DNA of 64,000 nucleotides from an uncultured Flavobacteriaceae bacterium (GTDB taxonomy: Bacteria; Bacteroidota; Bacteroidia; Flavobacteriales; Flavobacteriaceae): NCBI GenBank assembly GCA_947502635.1, contig CANNAN010000003.1, forward strand, positions 434,001 through 498,000, given 5' to 3'. Position 1 is the stretch's first letter; each line of letters starts with the position of its first letter. The position numbers and the translations under genes were made by a program. Positions 4,792-10,804 of the stretch are shown one piece after another. The notes under the pieces were generated by a model, which worked only from the letters and a program-made list of their open reading frames with translations, made no database searches and had not been told where the DNA came from.

Positions 4792-5178
4792 TTAAGACTT
4801 AGATATTCTTAAATTATTTAAAATGGCATATTGTATAAGGTTCCCTTTTCTAACAAGATTTAACTTTTTTCTCATGTTCTTTCGGTGCGTTTCAATTGTG
4901 GAACTCTTTAAATTAAATAATAAAGCAATGTCTTTAGTGTTTTTTCCATGTCCAATTTGTTCTAAAATTTGTAATTCTCTTTTGGTTAAACGCGCTGTTT
5001 TTTTTGGGATGTTATGATTTTGACTATTAAAAAGAAATATCAGGGAATTTACGAGTTCTTTGTGTTCAGTAATAGACTTTGTAGCTTCTAAAAGAGTACG
5101 TATGTCTCCTTTTGAAAGTAGGTTATTCTTTTTCTTTAGATCATTTATTGTTTTTAGGAGTTCTTGAATGGGGGGCAT
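4792..5178 (-). CDS. LuxR-type helix-turn-helix protein without receiver domain
   Basis: The 128-residue protein has a C-terminal LuxR/NarL-type DNA-binding domain (about residues 63-120), recognisable from LTKRELQILEQIGHGKNTKDIA and the STIETHRKNMRKKL recognition helix. The N-terminal 60 residues are helical, charged and not a receiver domain, since no phospho-acceptor aspartate pattern is present. It is the last gene of the leftward cluster that contains a complete two-component pair. The HTH closely resembles that of the response regulator at 6161-6784 (both have the T.ETHRKN/T.DTHRKN pattern). It may bind a related site or form mixed complexes, but this is inference. It lies 92 bases after the barrel gene, with no clear promoter of its own. 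Confidence 0.8.
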   Translation of the reverse strand: MPPIQELLKTINDLKKKNNLLSKGDIRTLLEATKSITEHKELVNSLIFLFNSQNHNIPKKTARLTKRELQILEQIGHGKNTKDIALLFNLKSSTIETHRKNMRKKLNLVRKGNLIQYAILNNLRISKS

Positions 5179-5270: not shown

Positions 5271-6089
5271 TTATGGTGTTTTATTTTTATCGTTTTCATT
5301 TTCGTCATTATTTTTGGAAATTGGAAATCCAATATTTATACCGATGCCCAACCAAGGTTGTCTATTGTATTTCCAGTTAGTATCTTTATCATCATTCCCC
5401 AAAAAGTCAAATCCATATTGAAAACTTAAATTAATAGTTTCCTTTAATTCTAAAAGAATGCCTCCAGATAAACTAAAAGCACTAGCAGACCTATTAGAAT
5501 CTTCACTTTCTATGAGGCTGCTATTTTTTGGGTTTAATTTAATAGTAGATAAACCAATACCTAAGGTAGGTGAGATTAGCCAATCATTATCTACTTTTCT
5601 ATTCAATCTAAACCTGAAGCTAACACTCATACCCAAATTAACGTTCTGTTCAAAATCAAAATCATCAAGTCTTAGCTTAAAAGGAACAGTAAAAAGACCA
5701 GCTTTAACACCTTTAAATCTATGATAAAAATAATATCTAGAAGTAGATTTTAAAAAAGTAGATTTATTTAAAGTATGTTTTTGTAATTGATTTGTACTTG
5801 CAATATTACTATCGTAATAATAAATTTCGTTTGATGTTTTGAATTGAGTACTGTATTCTGCTATAGAATCTAATTGTTTTTCTTTTTTAGTTTTTTTAAA
5901 CTTAATATAAACAAATGAAACAGAATTTACAGTAGTATCTATGATCTTTACTTTATGACCTTCTTTATACTGTACGTTTTTATTAAATACAGGGATATCA
6001 AATCTATAAGTAGCTTTTATTTCTTGTGAAAAAATTATTGTTGAATAGTATAATAAAAAGACTATGGTTAAACCGTTTTTCTTGTACAT
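5271..6089 (-). CDS. Outer-membrane-like beta-barrel protein in two-component cluster
   Basis: I do not recognise a named family. From the ATG at 6089 the protein has 272 residues, starting with a signal peptide (MYKKNGLTIVFLL, cleaved near FSQ). The N-terminal part (to about residue 110) is rich in charged residues. The second half alternates polar and hydrophobic residues as in a small barrel, with repeated glycine-rich strand ends such as SFRFRLNR, PTLGIGLSTIKL, LSGGILLEL and WLGIGINIGF. The tail is very acidic and asparagine-rich. An upstream TTG at 6113 would add eight residues, but it lies inside the -7 promoter box, so 6089 is the better start. The gene has its own regulated promoter with a palindrome (6111-6162) matching the one before the whole cluster, so it is a likely main target of the response regulator. 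Confidence 0.6.
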   Translation of the reverse strand: MYKKNGLTIVFLLYYSTIIFSQEIKATYRFDIPVFNKNVQYKEGHKVKIIDTTVNSVSFVYIKFKKTKKEKQLDSIAEYSTQFKTSNEIYYYDSNIASTNQLQKHTLNKSTFLKSTSRYYFYHRFKGVKAGLFTVPFKLRLDDFDFEQNVNLGMSVSFRFRLNRKVDNDWLISPTLGIGLSTIKLNPKNSSLIESEDSNRSASAFSLSGGILLELKETINLSFQYGFDFLGNDDKDTNWKYNRQPWLGIGINIGFPISKNNDENENDKNKTP

Positions 6090-6110
6090 GATTATTAGTT
6101 TTGATTTATT

Positions 6111-6162
6111 CAAATCTAATAATCAGTATCACTCAAAAATATCCCCAATACTGGGGATATTT
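6111..6162 (-). promoter_or_regulatory. Promoter and palindromic operator of the barrel gene
   Basis: An 11-bp perfect inverted repeat with a 4-base spacer spans 6137-6162. Its core CCCAATACTGGG (6144-6155) differs by one base from the core at 10548-10559. Read leftward, exactly 25 bases separate the core from TAGATTTG (6118-6111), a perfect TAnnTTTG -7 box. The ATG at 6089 would then follow a leader of about 15 bases. No good -33 element is present at the usual distance, so the palindrome sits where an activator would bind. The core has the 7-2-7 inverted geometry known for NarL-family dimers. It overlaps the response regulator stop codon and is followed leftward by TTTTT, so it could also act as a terminator. 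Confidence 0.65.
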
Positions 6163-6784
6163 AAAACTTATATTTCTTTTCTAAAGCATAACGTAGTAAT
6201 TCTCCTTTTCCCTGAAGCCCTAAAATACGCACCATGTTTTTACGGTGGGTGTCAACAGTATGAATCCCAATAAAAAGTAAATCGGCAATTTCGCGAGAGG
6301 TTTTTCCTTGTGCAATAAGCTCGAGGATTTCTATTTGTCGCTTTGTTAAAATACCTTTTGTTTTAATATCTGATTTTGAATTTAAAACATTCGTATTGAT
6401 GTTGGCATCCAGATATGTTTCTCCTTTTGAAACAGTTTGAATAGCATGATATACCTCTTTTAAAGATGAATTTTTTAAGATATATCCAGAAGCTCCTGCC
6501 TGCATCATTTGTTGTATGGCTTCGATTTGCTCAAACATAGTAAAGGCTAGTACATTTATACTTGGGTACTTTTTTTTAATTTGTTTTGTAGCTTCAATAC
6601 CATCCATTTTTGGCATTCTAATATCTGTCAGCACCACGTTTGGTTGTTTGCGTTCAACAATTTCCAGTAAAGCGGCACCGTCGTTTGCAGTTCCTACAAT
6701 ACTTATACCATCTTCATATTCTAAGAGTAGCTGAATACCATCTATTAATGATTGGTGATCTTCAGCTATAGCGAGTCGTATCAT
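6161..6784 (-). CDS. NarL/FixJ-family response regulator
   Basis: This is a 207-residue two-domain regulator. The receiver domain (about 1-120) has the acidic pair E8-D9, the phospho-acceptor D54 in VVLTDIRMPKMDG, the conserved T near residue 82 and the K of the LKNSS segment. The LuxR-type DNA-binding domain (about 140-205) begins LTKRQIEILELIAQGKTSREIA. Its start codon overlaps the last 4 bases of the upstream kinase gene, which indicates translational coupling and a cognate pair. A palindrome with NarL-type geometry lies at its own 3' end, before the barrel gene, and again before the first gene of the cluster. By inference these are its binding sites. Confidence 0.92.
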   Translation of the reverse strand: MIRLAIAEDHQSLIDGIQLLLEYEDGISIVGTANDGAALLEIVERKQPNVVLTDIRMPKMDGIEATKQIKKKYPSINVLAFTMFEQIEAIQQMMQAGASGYILKNSSLKEVYHAIQTVSKGETYLDANINTNVLNSKSDIKTKGILTKRQIEILELIAQGKTSREIADLLFIGIHTVDTHRKNMVRILGLQGKGELLRYALEKKYKF

Positions 6785-8628
6785 GTTGAAATGTCTATTA
6801 TTATTGTGGTGCCTTTATCAGGTTCAGATTCTATAGTCATAGAGCCATTTAAGTGTTCAATACGTTTATCTATGCTGCTAATACCCATGCCTTTGCTTTT
6901 TGTGGTAATTTGACTAGGGTTAAATCCTTTTCCATTGTCTTCTACCATAATGTTTAGGCTTTCATCATGATTGGTTAAATGTATTGTAACTTCGGTAGCT
7001 TTGGCATGTTTAATAATATTGGTTACCAATTCTTGAATAATTCTAAAAATAGTCAATTCTAAACTATTTTCTAAGCGGTCTTCTAGACCATGGTCAACAA
7101 CCTCTATTTTTATTTTATTTGATGTAGATACTTTGTCTGCCATATTCTGTATGGCTTTTAAAAGCCCTTGTTTGGCAATCACACCAGAGTTTTTGGCATG
7201 AGCTATAGTACGTATTTTTTGGTAAGCTTCATCAAGTAGTGTGTTCGTTTTATCAAATAATTCAGGCGTTTGTTTATCTTGAAGAACATTGAAATGAAGT
7301 TTAATGGTTGCCATTAAACCGCCCAAATCATCATGTAAGTCGTTGGCAATACGTTGGCGTTCTTTTTCCTGCCCTTCTATCATGGCATCAATGCTTAGCA
7401 GCTCTTGTTCCTTCAGAACTGTGGCTAGTTTTTGAGTTTCTAAGGCTTTTTCTTGTTCTGCTAGCTTTTGTTTACGTTTGGTATTTTTTTGTATAAGAAA
7501 AGCCGTAATGCCACCAAAGAGAATAAAAGCAAACGCTCCCATTAACAAATTAAAATTTTGTTTTCGTTTTCCTTCTATTTCAAGGTTGTCAGCACGTAGT
7601 TTTTCGTTGTCGTATTGTTCTTGTATATTGGCTATTGCTATACGTTGATCTTCTTTTTTTAGGCTATCATTAAAACGGATATAATTCTTAAGATGAAAAA
7701 AAGCTAATTCAAAGTTATTCTTTTTTTTATATAATTTTGAAAGGTTCTTTTCAATAAGAGATTTATAAAATATTTTGTTTTCGCTAATATTTATGCTATT
7801 GGCTTTGATATAATATAATTCGGCATTCTTTAGGTCATTTTTTGATAAGTATGAATTGCCAATATTTATGTAAGTATTGAAGTAACTTTTGTCATTTTGA
7901 TAACTGGGGGTTGCATTTATAAATTCAATTTTTTTATCATAATAATAAATAGCTGAATCTGAATTCTTTTTTACAGTTTCAAATAAAACCCCCATACTAT
8001 TATATGTAGATAATATTAATATACTATCTTTTCTATCAAATTTATTTCTTAAAAGGCCATGGTAACTACTCAGTGCTTTTTTTATGTTATTCCGAAATAG
8101 ATAATAATTTCCGTTTAAAAATTGATGGACTTTTTTAAAATGTGAGTTATTATATTCATTGGCTTTTTTTTCTAATAAATCAAGATATGCTTGGTTGTAT
8201 GGATAATCATTAACATAATCATATGATTGAGATAATGCAGATAAGCTATATAGTACAGTTAAACTATCTTTCATAATAATAGCCTTTTTGTAAGCCAGAT
8301 TACTAAATTTTAAAAAGAGAGAATCATTATCTGATAATTTATTTTTAAGTCCTTGAAAATATAAAATTTTAGCAGATTTGTTTTCAAGGATACTTTTACT
8401 TTCAATTGTTTTTTTAAAGTATTTAGATATAGAATCTAAATCTTTTGATTTACTAAAATAGATAAGATAATAATAATTTTTACTAAATGAATTATTTTTT
8501 AAGGTGTTAATTTTTGATAAAACCTTACTTTTTGGAGTAGTTTGATGAAAATAATAATAAGTAGAATCACAATCGCTCTGTGAATAACAGAGCGATATAG
8601 AAAAGAAAAATAAGGTTATTATTCTCAA
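6781..8628 (-). CDS. TPR-containing sensor histidine kinase (HisKA_3 type)
   Basis: The order of parts is: signal peptide (LRIITLFFFSISLCYSQ), a long helical TPR region outside the cytoplasm, one membrane helix (NLLMGAFAFILFGGITAFLI), a coiled coil, the HisKA_3 dimerisation domain with NDLHDDLGG, and a C-terminal HATPase with an N-box (ELVTNIIKHAKA) and the G-boxes VEDNGKGF and SKGMGISSI. This is the usual partner type of NarL regulators, and the regulator follows with a 4-base overlap. No ATG is available near the N-terminus. A TTG at 8712 overlaps the preceding stop codon (TTGA) but would place 28 polar residues before the signal peptide. I prefer the TTG at 8628, which starts at the signal peptide and has AAGGAAAA upstream. 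Counted from the longer start, the phosphorylated histidine is residue 460. Confidence 0.88.
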   Translation of the reverse strand: MRIITLFFFSISLCYSQSDCDSTYYYFHQTTPKSKVLSKINTLKNNSFSKNYYYLIYFSKSKDLDSISKYFKKTIESKSILENKSAKILYFQGLKNKLSDNDSLFLKFSNLAYKKAIIMKDSLTVLYSLSALSQSYDYVNDYPYNQAYLDLLEKKANEYNNSHFKKVHQFLNGNYYLFRNNIKKALSSYHGLLRNKFDRKDSILILSTYNSMGVLFETVKKNSDSAIYYYDKKIEFINATPSYQNDKSYFNTYINIGNSYLSKNDLKNAELYYIKANSINISENKIFYKSLIEKNLSKLYKKKNNFELAFFHLKNYIRFNDSLKKEDQRIAIANIQEQYDNEKLRADNLEIEGKRKQNFNLLMGAFAFILFGGITAFLIQKNTKRKQKLAEQEKALETQKLATVLKEQELLSIDAMIEGQEKERQRIANDLHDDLGGLMATIKLHFNVLQDKQTPELFDKTNTLLDEAYQKIRTIAHAKNSGVIAKQGLLKAIQNMADKVSTSNKIKIEVVDHGLEDRLENSLELTIFRIIQELVTNIIKHAKATEVTIHLTNHDESLNIMVEDNGKGFNPSQITTKSKGMGISSIDKRIEHLNGSMTIESEPDKGTTIIIDIST

Positions 8629-8708
8629 ATCATTATTATTTTCCTTGTAAAATAGATAATAATTACGATAATCAAAAATAAAATTGTATTGCTTAAGGTC
8701 TAATTCAA

Positions 8709-9158
8709 TCAAGGGTACCCAACGACAATGTTACCGTTTTTGTGTTCTGGATTGGGTTCAAAGTCAATATTATAAATGTCAATATTACAAGATTTAATTT
8801 CTTCATGATCTTCTTCATACAATTTAATATGTGTGAGAATAGTATAGCCACTATCTATTTTTATATTATGATTGTTTCCATCTTTTTCTATTATAACTTT
8901 TTGGTGAGAGTTAGGTTTACCTAGATCTTTTAGATTAATAATTAAATAATAGATTGTTTTGTTTTTAATTATATCACTACACATTATAGCGCTTGTTAGC
9001 CCATAGATATTTTCTCTTCTTTCTTCATCTACAACTATTTCTATTTTAGTAATAATACCTTCTTTGACTTCGAATGAGCCACGGATGTTAAAATATTCTT
9101 CATTCAATAATAAAATGTCTTGAGTATTTGAAGTTGTATTCAGTTTTTGATATTTCAT
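8709..9158 (-). CDS. Unknown 149-residue protein in protease-kinase cluster
   Basis: I do not recognise this protein. It has no signal peptide, no membrane helix and no cysteine-rich or catalytic motif I can name. The sequence alternates short hydrophobic stretches (KIEIVVDE, TIYYLIINLKDL, IKIDSGYTILTHIKLY) with charged turns, suggesting an all-beta or alpha-beta cytoplasmic domain, and ends NIVVGYP. The gene sits 12 bases after the trypsin-like protease gene. Its stop codon overlaps a possible TTG start of the histidine kinase. Tight spacing on both sides suggests that it works with the protease, for example as substrate, inhibitor or adaptor, but nothing in the sequence shows which. Confidence 0.6.
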   Translation of the reverse strand: MKYQKLNTTSNTQDILLLNEEYFNIRGSFEVKEGIITKIEIVVDEERRENIYGLTSAIMCSDIIKNKTIYYLIINLKDLGKPNSHQKVIIEKDGNNHNIKIDSGYTILTHIKLYEEDHEEIKSCNIDIYNIDFEPNPEHKNGNIVVGYP

Positions 9159-9170
9159 AATTTTATGTTT

Positions 9171-10133
9171 TTAATTAATAAATGATTCAAAGTTTATAAT
9201 AGGTTCTTTGTCAGGGCTATCTGAAATAATAGGATTTGATAATAAATTGAAAATATTATTAGCTACAGAAATCGTATTATTTCCTCCAATGTGTAGACCA
9301 ATTACATTTTTCTTGTCTTTAATATTCCTTTCTACTATAATAGAGCCAGAATCTCCTTTTTCGAAACCAAGGTCTTTTAATAATATTTGATTTTTGAACC
9401 ACTTGTTTTTAATTTTAACTATTGCTCTAGATGAATACATATAGCCTTTATCTTTATGATAACCGGATTTCATACCTTTTCCCATTATTCTTTTTATGTT
9501 AAAGGAAGTAGGTTTCAATTCTCCAAATTTAAACTCAGGTTCTCCATAAGTTAAATAGTTTTTTGCAGTTATTTTTATAAATGCTACATCGTAATAATCG
9601 TCATAGATACTTCTGTAAAATTCTCCAATGATCTGATCGTCTAAATTGTATACTTTGACTCCTTTTCTTCTTCCGCTTTTAGAAATGACATGATGATTTG
9701 TAATAAAAAATAATTCATTTTCATTTTTTAGTTTCATAACAGCTCCTATACTACCTCTTTTTATTGAACCTTTTGGGCATTTTAATGGAGATCCAAAAAA
9801 AGTTTTTTTATCACAGTGGAATTCAAAATCGTTAATATTCTTAACAGTCTTTATTTCTAAAGTTTCATGATCACGAAAAACAAACTCTTTATTTTTTATG
9901 TTTTTAATATCATTAAATAAACCTGTATCGTCAGGAAAATAACTTTTTATATTTTTTTTTATTTTTTTTAATCTACTTAAGGTCATTTTTTCATTTGCAC
10001 CTATCTCAAAAAGGTAATTAAGCTCTTTACTTTTTATAATTGCAAAGTATTTTAACCCTGTTTCATTTTTGTATTTATTATAAATTATTTCTTGTATATG
10101 AGGGAATAATTCGTTAGCTCTATCTTCAGTCAT
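9171..10133 (-). CDS. Cytoplasmic trypsin-like serine protease (S1 fold)
   Basis: The 320-residue protein has a C-terminal chymotrypsin-fold protease domain (about residues 118-300). The predicted triad is H148 in ITNHHVIS, D182 in YYDVAFIKI and S262 in KGDSGSIIV. The typical closing strand VIGLHIGG follows. There is no signal peptide or membrane helix, so it is probably intracellular, which is unusual for this fold outside the HtrA group, and no PDZ domain is present. The N-terminal 110 residues are a separate, mostly helical, lysine-rich region that I do not recognise. It could be an adaptor or regulatory domain. The gene lies 12 bases after the small membrane protein and 12 before the 149-residue protein. 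Substrate and role are unknown. Confidence 0.82.
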   Translation of the reverse strand: MTEDRANELFPHIQEIIYNKYKNETGLKYFAIIKSKELNYLFEIGANEKMTLSRLKKIKKNIKSYFPDDTGLFNDIKNIKNKEFVFRDHETLEIKTVKNINDFEFHCDKKTFFGSPLKCPKGSIKRGSIGAVMKLKNENELFFITNHHVISKSGRRKGVKVYNLDDQIIGEFYRSIYDDYYDVAFIKITAKNYLTYGEPEFKFGELKPTSFNIKRIMGKGMKSGYHKDKGYMYSSRAIVKIKNKWFKNQILLKDLGFEKGDSGSIIVERNIKDKKNVIGLHIGGNNTISVANNIFNLLSNPIISDSPDKEPIINFESFIN

Positions 10134-10145
10134 AGTAATAAGAGA

Positions 10146-10487
10146 TTAAATTAAAGGATTAAACAAATAAACCAAAACAAAAACGGCAATAGCACCAGAA
10201 GCACTAATGGTAGGTTCCTTTTCTAAAAGAGACATGGGATTAGATTCGTTTGTACCTTCTGCATTCAAACGGGTAATAGGATTTCCATCAGGTTTGTTAT
10301 TCAAGGAAATCATTCCAGGAATCGAAATACTAATGGAGGCAGCTGCAAGAGCTGTTAACACGCGATAAAACCAAAAGTGAGGATCTTTTTCAAAGTCAAG
10401 TTCCATTTTATGAGTGATAATCATAATTGCAGAAAATGCAATCACTCCAAATAAAAACATGGTAATGGGAGAGACTAATTTTTTCAT
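10146..10487 (-). CDS. Small membrane protein, first gene of the protease-kinase cluster
   Basis: This 113-residue protein has three hydrophobic segments: about 6-26, 40-62 (containing RVLTALAAASISISIPGMIS) and 94-111 (SGAIAVFVLVYLFNP). A polar loop of about 30 residues separates the second and third. The IPG motif and the glycine-rich last helix ending FNP give the impression of a recurrent short membrane module, but I cannot name a family with certainty. It is the first gene of the leftward cluster, about 20 bases after a predicted transcription start, and is followed after 12 bases by the protease gene. A role as membrane anchor or sensor for the protease is inference only. Confidence 0.6.
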   Translation of the reverse strand: MKKLVSPITMFLFGVIAFSAIMIITHKMELDFEKDPHFWFYRVLTALAAASISISIPGMISLNNKPDGNPITRLNAEGTNESNPMSLLEKEPTISASGAIAVFVLVYLFNPLI

Positions 10488-10514
10488 AAGGGTTGGATTC
10501 GTTAATTAATATTG

Positions 10515-10562
10515 CAAATTTGCCATATAATTTCACACTAAAACATACCCAATAATGGGTAT
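10515..10562 (-). promoter_or_regulatory. Promoter and palindromic operator of the protease-kinase cluster
   Basis: The inverted repeat ATACCCA-ATAA-TGGGTAT spans 10545-10562. Read as heptamers it is TACCCAA-TA-ATGGGTA, matching the 7-2-7 layout and the TACYYMT-type half-site known for NarL. Leftward, exactly 25 bases after the core, comes CAAATTTG (10522-10515), one mismatch from the TAnnTTTG -7 box. The ATG follows after a predicted leader of about 20 bases. The core and the 25-base spacing are the same as at 6111-6162, and the spacer shares a TTTT...G.GTGA pattern. I infer that the response regulator of this cluster controls its own operon. Confidence 0.6.
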
Positions 10563-10773: not shown

Positions 10774-10804
10774 AAAAAAGAGAAGTTATTAACTTCTCTT
10801 TTTT
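10774..10804 (-). terminator. Terminator of the lipoprotein gene
   Basis: A 14-bp inverted repeat (AAAAAAGAGAAGTT and its complement) with a 3-base loop begins 57 bases beyond the stop of the gene at 10861. Read leftward it ends in TTTTTT. Its core resembles the terminator at 12731-12761. Confidence 0.85.

Follow-up and report, generated by a model that had tools for sequence, protein, structure and literature searches.

A conserved palindrome-promoter arrangement in Flavobacteriaceae, the probable operator of a NarL-type response regulator linked to peptidase genes

Among the described systems closest to the locus reported here is the ogt1052 promoter of Escherichia coli, where, in the excerpt of the source at hand, NarL occupies a single site centred at -44.5, 32 bp from the -10 element (PMC9314961). 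Our subject is a pair of palindromes in 64,000 nucleotides of DNA from an uncultured Flavobacteriaceae bacterium (contig CANNAN010000003.1, positions 434,001 to 498,000; this whole stretch is called the window). They are very probably operators of the response regulator encoded at 6161-6784: judged from sequence, a dimer of this regulator would bind them beside RNA polymerase, activate its own operon and drive unlinked genes for proteases and secreted proteins. Both systems employ a regulator of GerE type and two inverted heptamers separated by two bases (7-2-7), in nearly the same geometry as far as the ogt1052 excerpt describes it (PMC9314961). In contrast, a Bacteroidota -7 box stands here in place of the -10 element and a TPR kinase in place of the nitrate sensor, and the targets comprise protease and secreted-protein genes, including the regulator's own operon.

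On the features that can be tested, namely receiver and GerE domains and 7-2-7 heptamers, the regulator is of NarL/FixJ type. By sequence it is related to VraR, DesR and NarL; among solved structures VraR and DesR are closest to the full protein, and the alignments with VraR and NarL run almost end to end. Operators and regulons of VraR and DesR differ from those found here. NarL proper, with its nitrate regulon, was rejected, as the partner kinase has TPR, HisKA_3 and HATPase-type domains only (Pfam) and the predicted targets are peptidases and a barrel.

Two further systems share single traits with this locus. PorX-PorY-SigP of Porphyromonas gingivalis, another Bacteroidota two-component pathway linked to proteases, is tied to protease secretion by the type IX secretion system (T9SS) (PMC4800418); it works via an extracytoplasmic function (ECF) sigma factor on secretion components, whereas here a GerE regulator has operators beside housekeeping-type boxes. 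Conflict systems of EAD/EACC1 type likewise hold trypsin or caspase peptidase genes in regulated multi-gene modules; in the accessible sections of both sources they centre on NTPases and adaptor domains, whereas the present operon holds a histidine kinase and a response regulator (PMC7159879; PMC8195603). Pfam detected no NTPase or EAD adaptor core in the window operon, adaptor domains being of a kind that may escape Pfam. No description of the operator, the regulator or the regulon was found in the open-access literature. The elements on which the argument rests are the following.

5271 to 6089, minus strand: putative barrel-like outer-membrane protein, 272 amino acids (aa) from ATG at 6089, without Pfam match; proposed target
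6111 to 6118, minus strand: -7 box predicted for the barrel promoter, TAGATTTG, 25 bases from the core; predicted +1 near 6106
6142 to 6157, minus strand: predicted 7-2-7 operator of the barrel gene, predicted centre -43.5; relatives have post-regulator sites
6161 to 6784, minus strand: LuxR/NarL-type response regulator, 207 aa, the proposed binder (Pfam Response_reg 8.4e-29, GerE 1.9e-14)
6781 to 8712, minus strand: histidine kinase, TPR - HisKA_3 - HATPase_c (Pfam)
10146 to 10487, minus strand: putative membrane protein, 113 aa, first gene of the operon, without Pfam match
10515 to 10522, minus strand: -7 box in weakened form, CAAATTTG, at the operon promoter; predicted +1 near 10510
10546 to 10561, minus strand: predicted 7-2-7 operator of the regulator operon, predicted centre -43.5

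The cores CCCAATACTGGG (6144-6155) and CCCAATAATGGG (10548-10559) are followed on the minus strand by exactly 25 bases and then by the box TAGATTTG (6118-6111) or CAAATTTG (10522-10515), precisely where a sequence-only reading of this DNA had placed them. That reading also proposed a start codon after a short leader, and likely ATG codons indeed lie 21 bases (6089, barrel gene) and 27 bases (10487, operon) past the boxes; the listed TTG start of the barrel gene (6113) falls within its box. The 6144 palindrome spans 26 bp and the one at 10548 spans 18 bp, more than had been stated; each has one non-complementary pair beside the centre. On the minus strand they read TACCCAT-TA-TTGGGTA (operon) and TCCCCAG-TA-TTGGGGA (barrel gene), their general type being an inverted repeat TACCCAN-TA-TTGGGTA. 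The suggested NarL-type 7-2-7 form agrees with this, the left operon heptamer matching TACYYMT in 7/7 letters and the barrel site in 5/7. Of the six informative letters of the Bacteroidota -7 box TAnnTTTG, the barrel box has all and the operon box five. Because this box is located at -12 to -5 in Flavobacterium psychrophilum, in the excerpt of the report at hand (PMC9723704), the operator centre is predicted at -43.5.

Loose matching yields no excess: with two mismatches allowed, the 12-mer occurs 9 times in the window where 11.3 are expected. The signal, which greatly exceeds chance, resides in exact matches to the extended form and in matches to a promoter model. Spacing was examined in loci selected by the regulator protein and not by the box: palindromes were picked by their arms alone (at most one arm mismatch), and boxes matching at least 5/6 letters were counted at every offset from 8 to 59. 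In 13 regulator loci, 21 of 48 noncoding oriented palindromes had a box at the predicted offset (other offsets: mean 0.67, maximum 6). In 20 of the 29 regulator genomes that lack a match to the promoter model described below, the count was 15 of 46 (mean 0.55, maximum 2). The 45 named loci, drawn from the 80 best kept by regulator similarity, gave 60 of 162, spread over 32 of the 45 loci (mean 1.69, maximum 7). Loci of 35 non-orthologous response regulators held 6 palindromes in all, none of them boxed at the predicted offset; 8 of these control loci were taken as Bacteroidota and the other 27 are mostly from other phyla, so that composition differs. A further count, 64 boxes among 156 palindromes, was set aside, as its regions had been chosen by the promoter model itself.

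The sites accompany the regulator. Among 99 genomes, 14 including our own carry it at 60% identity or more, and four genomes of the same genus lack it (best match about 37%). Under the strict rule, 11 of the 13 other loci have a site upstream of the operon, 10 have one after the regulator and all 13 have at least one. Twenty-five promoters align without gaps, with invariant columns CC, GG, A20-T21, T23, T26 and the TT of the box. The spacer pattern TTTT...G.GTGA proposed from the two window sites survives in part: the T-tract is conserved in this alignment and GTGA is not. Across 98 distinct regulator loci, up to 23 of them derived from model-selected regions, 52 have the operon site, 62 the post-regulator site, 72 either and 42 both. 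The sequence-only reading would have been supported by sites conserved only before these genes. The sites are largely kept with the regulator (72 of 98 loci), and they are not confined to these genes: in other genomes a wide range of further genes, most of which look secreted, have the architecture in front, and it occurs also in some genomes without the regulator. The operator-promoter architecture is real and conserved; sites, exact spacing, conservation with the regulator, downstream genes and two classes of box are all directly visible in the DNA.

A sequence-only model built from the 25 promoters was run on 397 family genomes. With model E-values that are rough and relatedness uncorrected, the motif (E <= 1e-4) was found in 79 genomes and the regulator (E <= 1e-55) in 84: 55 have both, 24 the motif only, 29 the regulator only and 289 neither, so that the motif occurs in 55/84 genomes with the regulator and 24/313 without. 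After removal of 7 training genomes the table reads 48/24/29/289 (odds ratio 19.9). Model matches lie within 15 kb of the regulator in 32 genomes, and all but one of these matches are on its strand; adjacency was typed at 34 regulator positions out of 77 outside the training genomes, most of them selected because the contig also carried a match. Regulator-adjacent sites are thus present in at least 32 of the 48 non-training genomes having both.

Genomic context was examined for 84 non-training model sites, mostly the better-scoring matches with their clusters, one per mirror pair; a match within an open reading frame (ORF; G054, contig C3) was removed from the counts. None of the 84 lies inside a called ORF. 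At 67 a start on the same strand follows within 450 bases, in 47 of these at 55-110 bases (median 81), distances being counted from the site start and having played no part in the model. These data bear on the possibility that the palindromes terminate transcription intrinsically, as short GC-rich hairpins with T-tracts after an upstream gene. The 6144 palindrome does stand a few bases past the regulator stop and is followed by T5, and the upstream gene is co-directional at 64 of the 84 sites, ending within 60 bases in 40 of those 64. However, terminators would not be expected to have a box at fixed distance or start codons at a peaked distance, the upstream gene is divergent at 18 sites with T5 runs as common there (11/18 against 34/64), and a terminator scan, which flags neither palindrome, assigns the upstream gene a terminator of its own at 10774-10804. 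Termination as their function is therefore very improbable; a dual role, terminator as well as operator, is conceivable at the post-regulator site.

Some genomes are rich in sites: G273 has 11 model matches, G369 seven, and G313 and G405 five each. Several sites cluster beside the regulator in G369 and G313; G405 has no regulator at the cut-off used.

In the window's own genome (5.44 Mb), exact CCCAATANTGGG occurs in 5 places and exact TACCCANTATTGGGTA in 3; with three mismatches the latter occurs 90 times forward and 89 times reverse, which is background (94 and 83 for the reversed control pattern). The whole-promoter model gives four strong matches (E <= 7.2e-9; next 4.8e-3), all of them part of its training sites. 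Besides the window pair these are two new good sites read on the minus strand, C4:317058 and C4:351740, with boxes TAATATTA and TAACCTTG exactly 25 bases from the core (4/6 and 5/6 letters of TAnnTTTG) and gene starts about 61 bases and about 75 bases (a TTG) after the core. All four sites have one common geometry. A candidate at C3:37576 (CCCAATAGTGGG, locus L001) was rejected, being without extended arms and missing from the model matches listed.

The gene following C4:317058 encodes an 865-aa fusion of a caspase-like N-terminal part and an S8 (subtilisin) domain, whose first 400 aa match the GSU0716 structure 3bij (5.1e-35) and metacaspase-1 (3.9e-10); it is followed by a 324-aa gene without Pfam match. 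The gene following C4:351740 encodes a 513-aa S8 peptidase. The window operon itself contains a peptidase-like gene:

9171 to 10133, minus strand: trypsin-like peptidase with triad-like His148, Asp182 and Ser262 (Trypsin_2 E 0.088, sub-threshold)

In 11 aligned sequences, those of the window and 10 relatives, His and Ser are present in 11/11 and Asp in all but one, and the homologue in G007 matches Trypsin_2 at 5.7e-7. Because of this retained triad, the homologue's match and both C4 targets, three of the four predicted transcription units in this genome encode peptidases.

The two trans peptidase loci had been overlooked by the sequence-only reading, as had a systematic difference between the boxes, CAnnTTTG before the own operon and TAnnTTTG at other sites. 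When 4 of the last 5 informative letters were required and the first was left free, 62 operon-upstream sites (62/102 loci) began with C 27, G 24, T 9 and A 2 times, and 86 post-regulator sites with T 76, G 5, C 4 and A 1 times (Fisher p 1.6e-20, with relatedness uncorrected and model-selected regions included). Own-operon promoters thus carry, unexpectedly, a weakened box, [C/G]AnnTTTG, and post-regulator sites TAnnTTTR. Operon boxes without the initial T come from loci titled with 13 genera, for example Psychroserpens, Winogradskyella, Aquimarina, Tenacibaculum and Nonlabens, and the window conforms to both classes with CAAATTTG and TAGATTTG. We interpret [C/G]AnnTTTG as a conserved and presumably weak self-promoter.

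What appears to be new is the regulon, together with the two classes of box and the tie to peptidases. A two-component family that seems not to have been characterised before, found in roughly one in five of the sampled family genomes (84/397), thereby gains a readable operator code, from which target genes can be listed by sequence alone; a kinase-regulator pair is linked to peptidase genes, one of them caspase-like, and a natural design rule emerges, a weak box for the self-promoter and a TA box for other promoters.

The following mechanism would account for these findings. The TPR histidine kinase next door would phosphorylate the regulator, whose phosphorylated dimer would bind the two inverted heptamers across their 2-bp gap, centred at -43.5 beside the T-rich -33 region. 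Bound in this way, it may recruit RNA polymerase with the housekeeping sigma factor to the -7 box TAnnTTTG, fixed 25 bases further on. Activation of its own operon through the weak promoter (CAnnTTTG) would provide positive feedback while keeping basal output low; through boxes starting with TA the regulator would activate the barrel gene and, on C4, two unlinked loci (the caspase/subtilisin fusion plus partner, and the subtilisin). Alternatively, the regulator might repress from the same operators, or switch between repression and activation. The operator abuts the -33 region, and two-component autoregulatory sites can be repressive, which speaks for this variant; activation, on the other hand, fits the position at -43.5, upstream of and not over the -7 region, the strict box spacing and the weak operon -7 boxes, and we regard repression or such a switch as distinctly unlikely.

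Several points weigh against assigning the palindromes to this regulator as its activating operators. The housekeeping promoters of Bacteroidota have a -33 element TTTG, and in the 25 aligned promoters a T-tract is all that is conserved near -33 to -30. The arm pattern was written after some loci had been viewed, the box offset was not. Under the strict pattern 26 of the 98 distinct loci have no site, 17 of the 84 model sites have no called gene downstream, and the Fisher p values are not probabilities, as the genomes are related. Regulator binding, phosphorylation, activation over repression and the function of the weak box are inferred from sequence. Finally, no ortholog reaching E <= 1e-55 is present in 24 of the 79 genomes with the motif. 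In the smaller genome set, G006 (8.2e-9) and G008 (7.8e-7) of the same genus have model matches without the regulator, so that such sites probably also serve a different GerE protein or else are orphan; weaker matches without it occur in G012 (1.6e-5) and G021 (1.3e-5). One of the 24, G161, has a regulator cut at the contig end.

This brings in a further protein of the window:

4792 to 5178, minus strand: short LuxR protein with a GerE domain only, which contains the letters THRKNM as in the regulator; possible competitor or partner

The operators might be real and be bound mainly by another GerE protein, either this short LuxR or a paralogous regulator, acting alone or in competition. The letters HRKNM are invariant in 14 regulator orthologs and common to the short LuxR, which is therefore a possible competitor; its THRKNM stretch is identical, and the operator precedes the short LuxR gene itself in some relatives (G190, G281, G369). 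Of the motif-only genomes, 19 were scanned (20 minus G161), and in 9 of them a site has the gene of a different GerE protein no more than about 1.5 kb away (no background rate was computed). On the opposite side, sites persist in G004, G010 and G003, where a full-length short LuxR was not found in the fetched regions, they flank the response regulator itself, and the 35 non-orthologous response-regulator loci hold no boxed site. Binding mainly by another protein is accordingly unlikely, and the regulator at 6161-6784 is preferred. In four genomes without it, GerE proteins of 244-282 aa end 26-1029 bases before sites (L227 in G405, L242 in G285, L228 in G212, L241 in G371); they may form another class of regulator whose operator is similar.

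Genes around the conserved core change among species of one genus. The C-terminal half of the kinase and the regulator are conserved, and the flanking genes vary, both those ahead of the kinase and those that follow the regulator: a trypsin-like gene precedes the kinase in 11 loci compared and a C39-like gene in G036 (1.7e-5), and the regulator is followed by the barrel gene, a protein with a T9SS tail (G054) or others. Homologues of the barrel gene stand downstream of the operator in G002 and G387, with a weaker one in G385 (30% over 145 aa). Operators mostly persist despite this turnover. By eye, the kinase operon of locus L261 (G184) opens with a gene, at 6761-7435, whose start is caspase-like (VGID.Y.NAGALHSAINDA).

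Among 66 first genes downstream of sites family-wide, T9SS sorting tails led the Pfam families (8), ahead of LRR (up to 5) and of Ig and GerE with 4 each. By a crude ad hoc rule, signal-peptide-like starts occur in 50 of these 66 genes and in 172 out of 426 others. A pure protease regulon across the family was rejected, since the 25 of 77 Pfam families shown include a single peptidase family (M43, one member). Of 18 listed external sites 15 were scanned; peptidase genes follow 4 of them (M12B; S8 as second gene; S8; M10/astacin).

Both C4 targets (G000 C4:305424-318143 and 351759; L164, L018) adjoin a repeat of about 100-200 bases, TTCTGCGTTATGTA...GTGTATGGAATGG, copies of which lie 0.6-6.8 kb apart on one strand with single genes between them, some resembling toxin-antitoxin pairs by eye. 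The region is a cassette-like array and not a proven integron. An integron was in fact rejected, with TIGR02249 over its cut-off in 0 of 12 genomes; weaker tyrosine-recombinase matches to it occur in all 12 genomes and 14 controls alike. The repeat had no match in Rfam. Compared with shuffled sequences, one copy showed no folding advantage on one strand (z -0.47) and a slight one on the other (z -1.72). In sister species (L151, L163, L149, L152 of G002, G005, G006, G011) the same upstream repeat stands before genes that have the operator and belong to unrelated families, as if the promoter travelled with the cassette. The G006 site, too, has the long repeat that lies upstream of the C4 targets, and may for this reason be a transferred cassette.

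A broader reading, conceivable if doubtful, joins these observations: a portable operator-promoter module, a fixed 7-2-7 operator with its -7 box under the control of one two-component system, might be placed before interchangeable secreted proteins or unrelated peptidases (trypsin-like, caspase/subtilisin, subtilisin, M12B, M10/astacin), some of them in repeat-bounded cassette-like arrays, the -12 defect of the self-promoter would turn the entire regulon into an all-or-none switch with positive feedback, and the output in this genus would be a proteolytic response programme, perhaps for defence or programmed proteolysis.

One gene of the window operon remains to be described.

8709 to 9158, minus strand: 149-aa protein with a conserved C-terminal GNIIVG-like tail

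Its identity with the equivalents in 10 relatives falls to 14-24%, and a tail of the form P..K.GNIIVG is retained across them, with P137, G142 and I144 invariant. Activated trypsins start with IVGG, of which this tail is reminiscent, and the protein is perhaps a processed signal.

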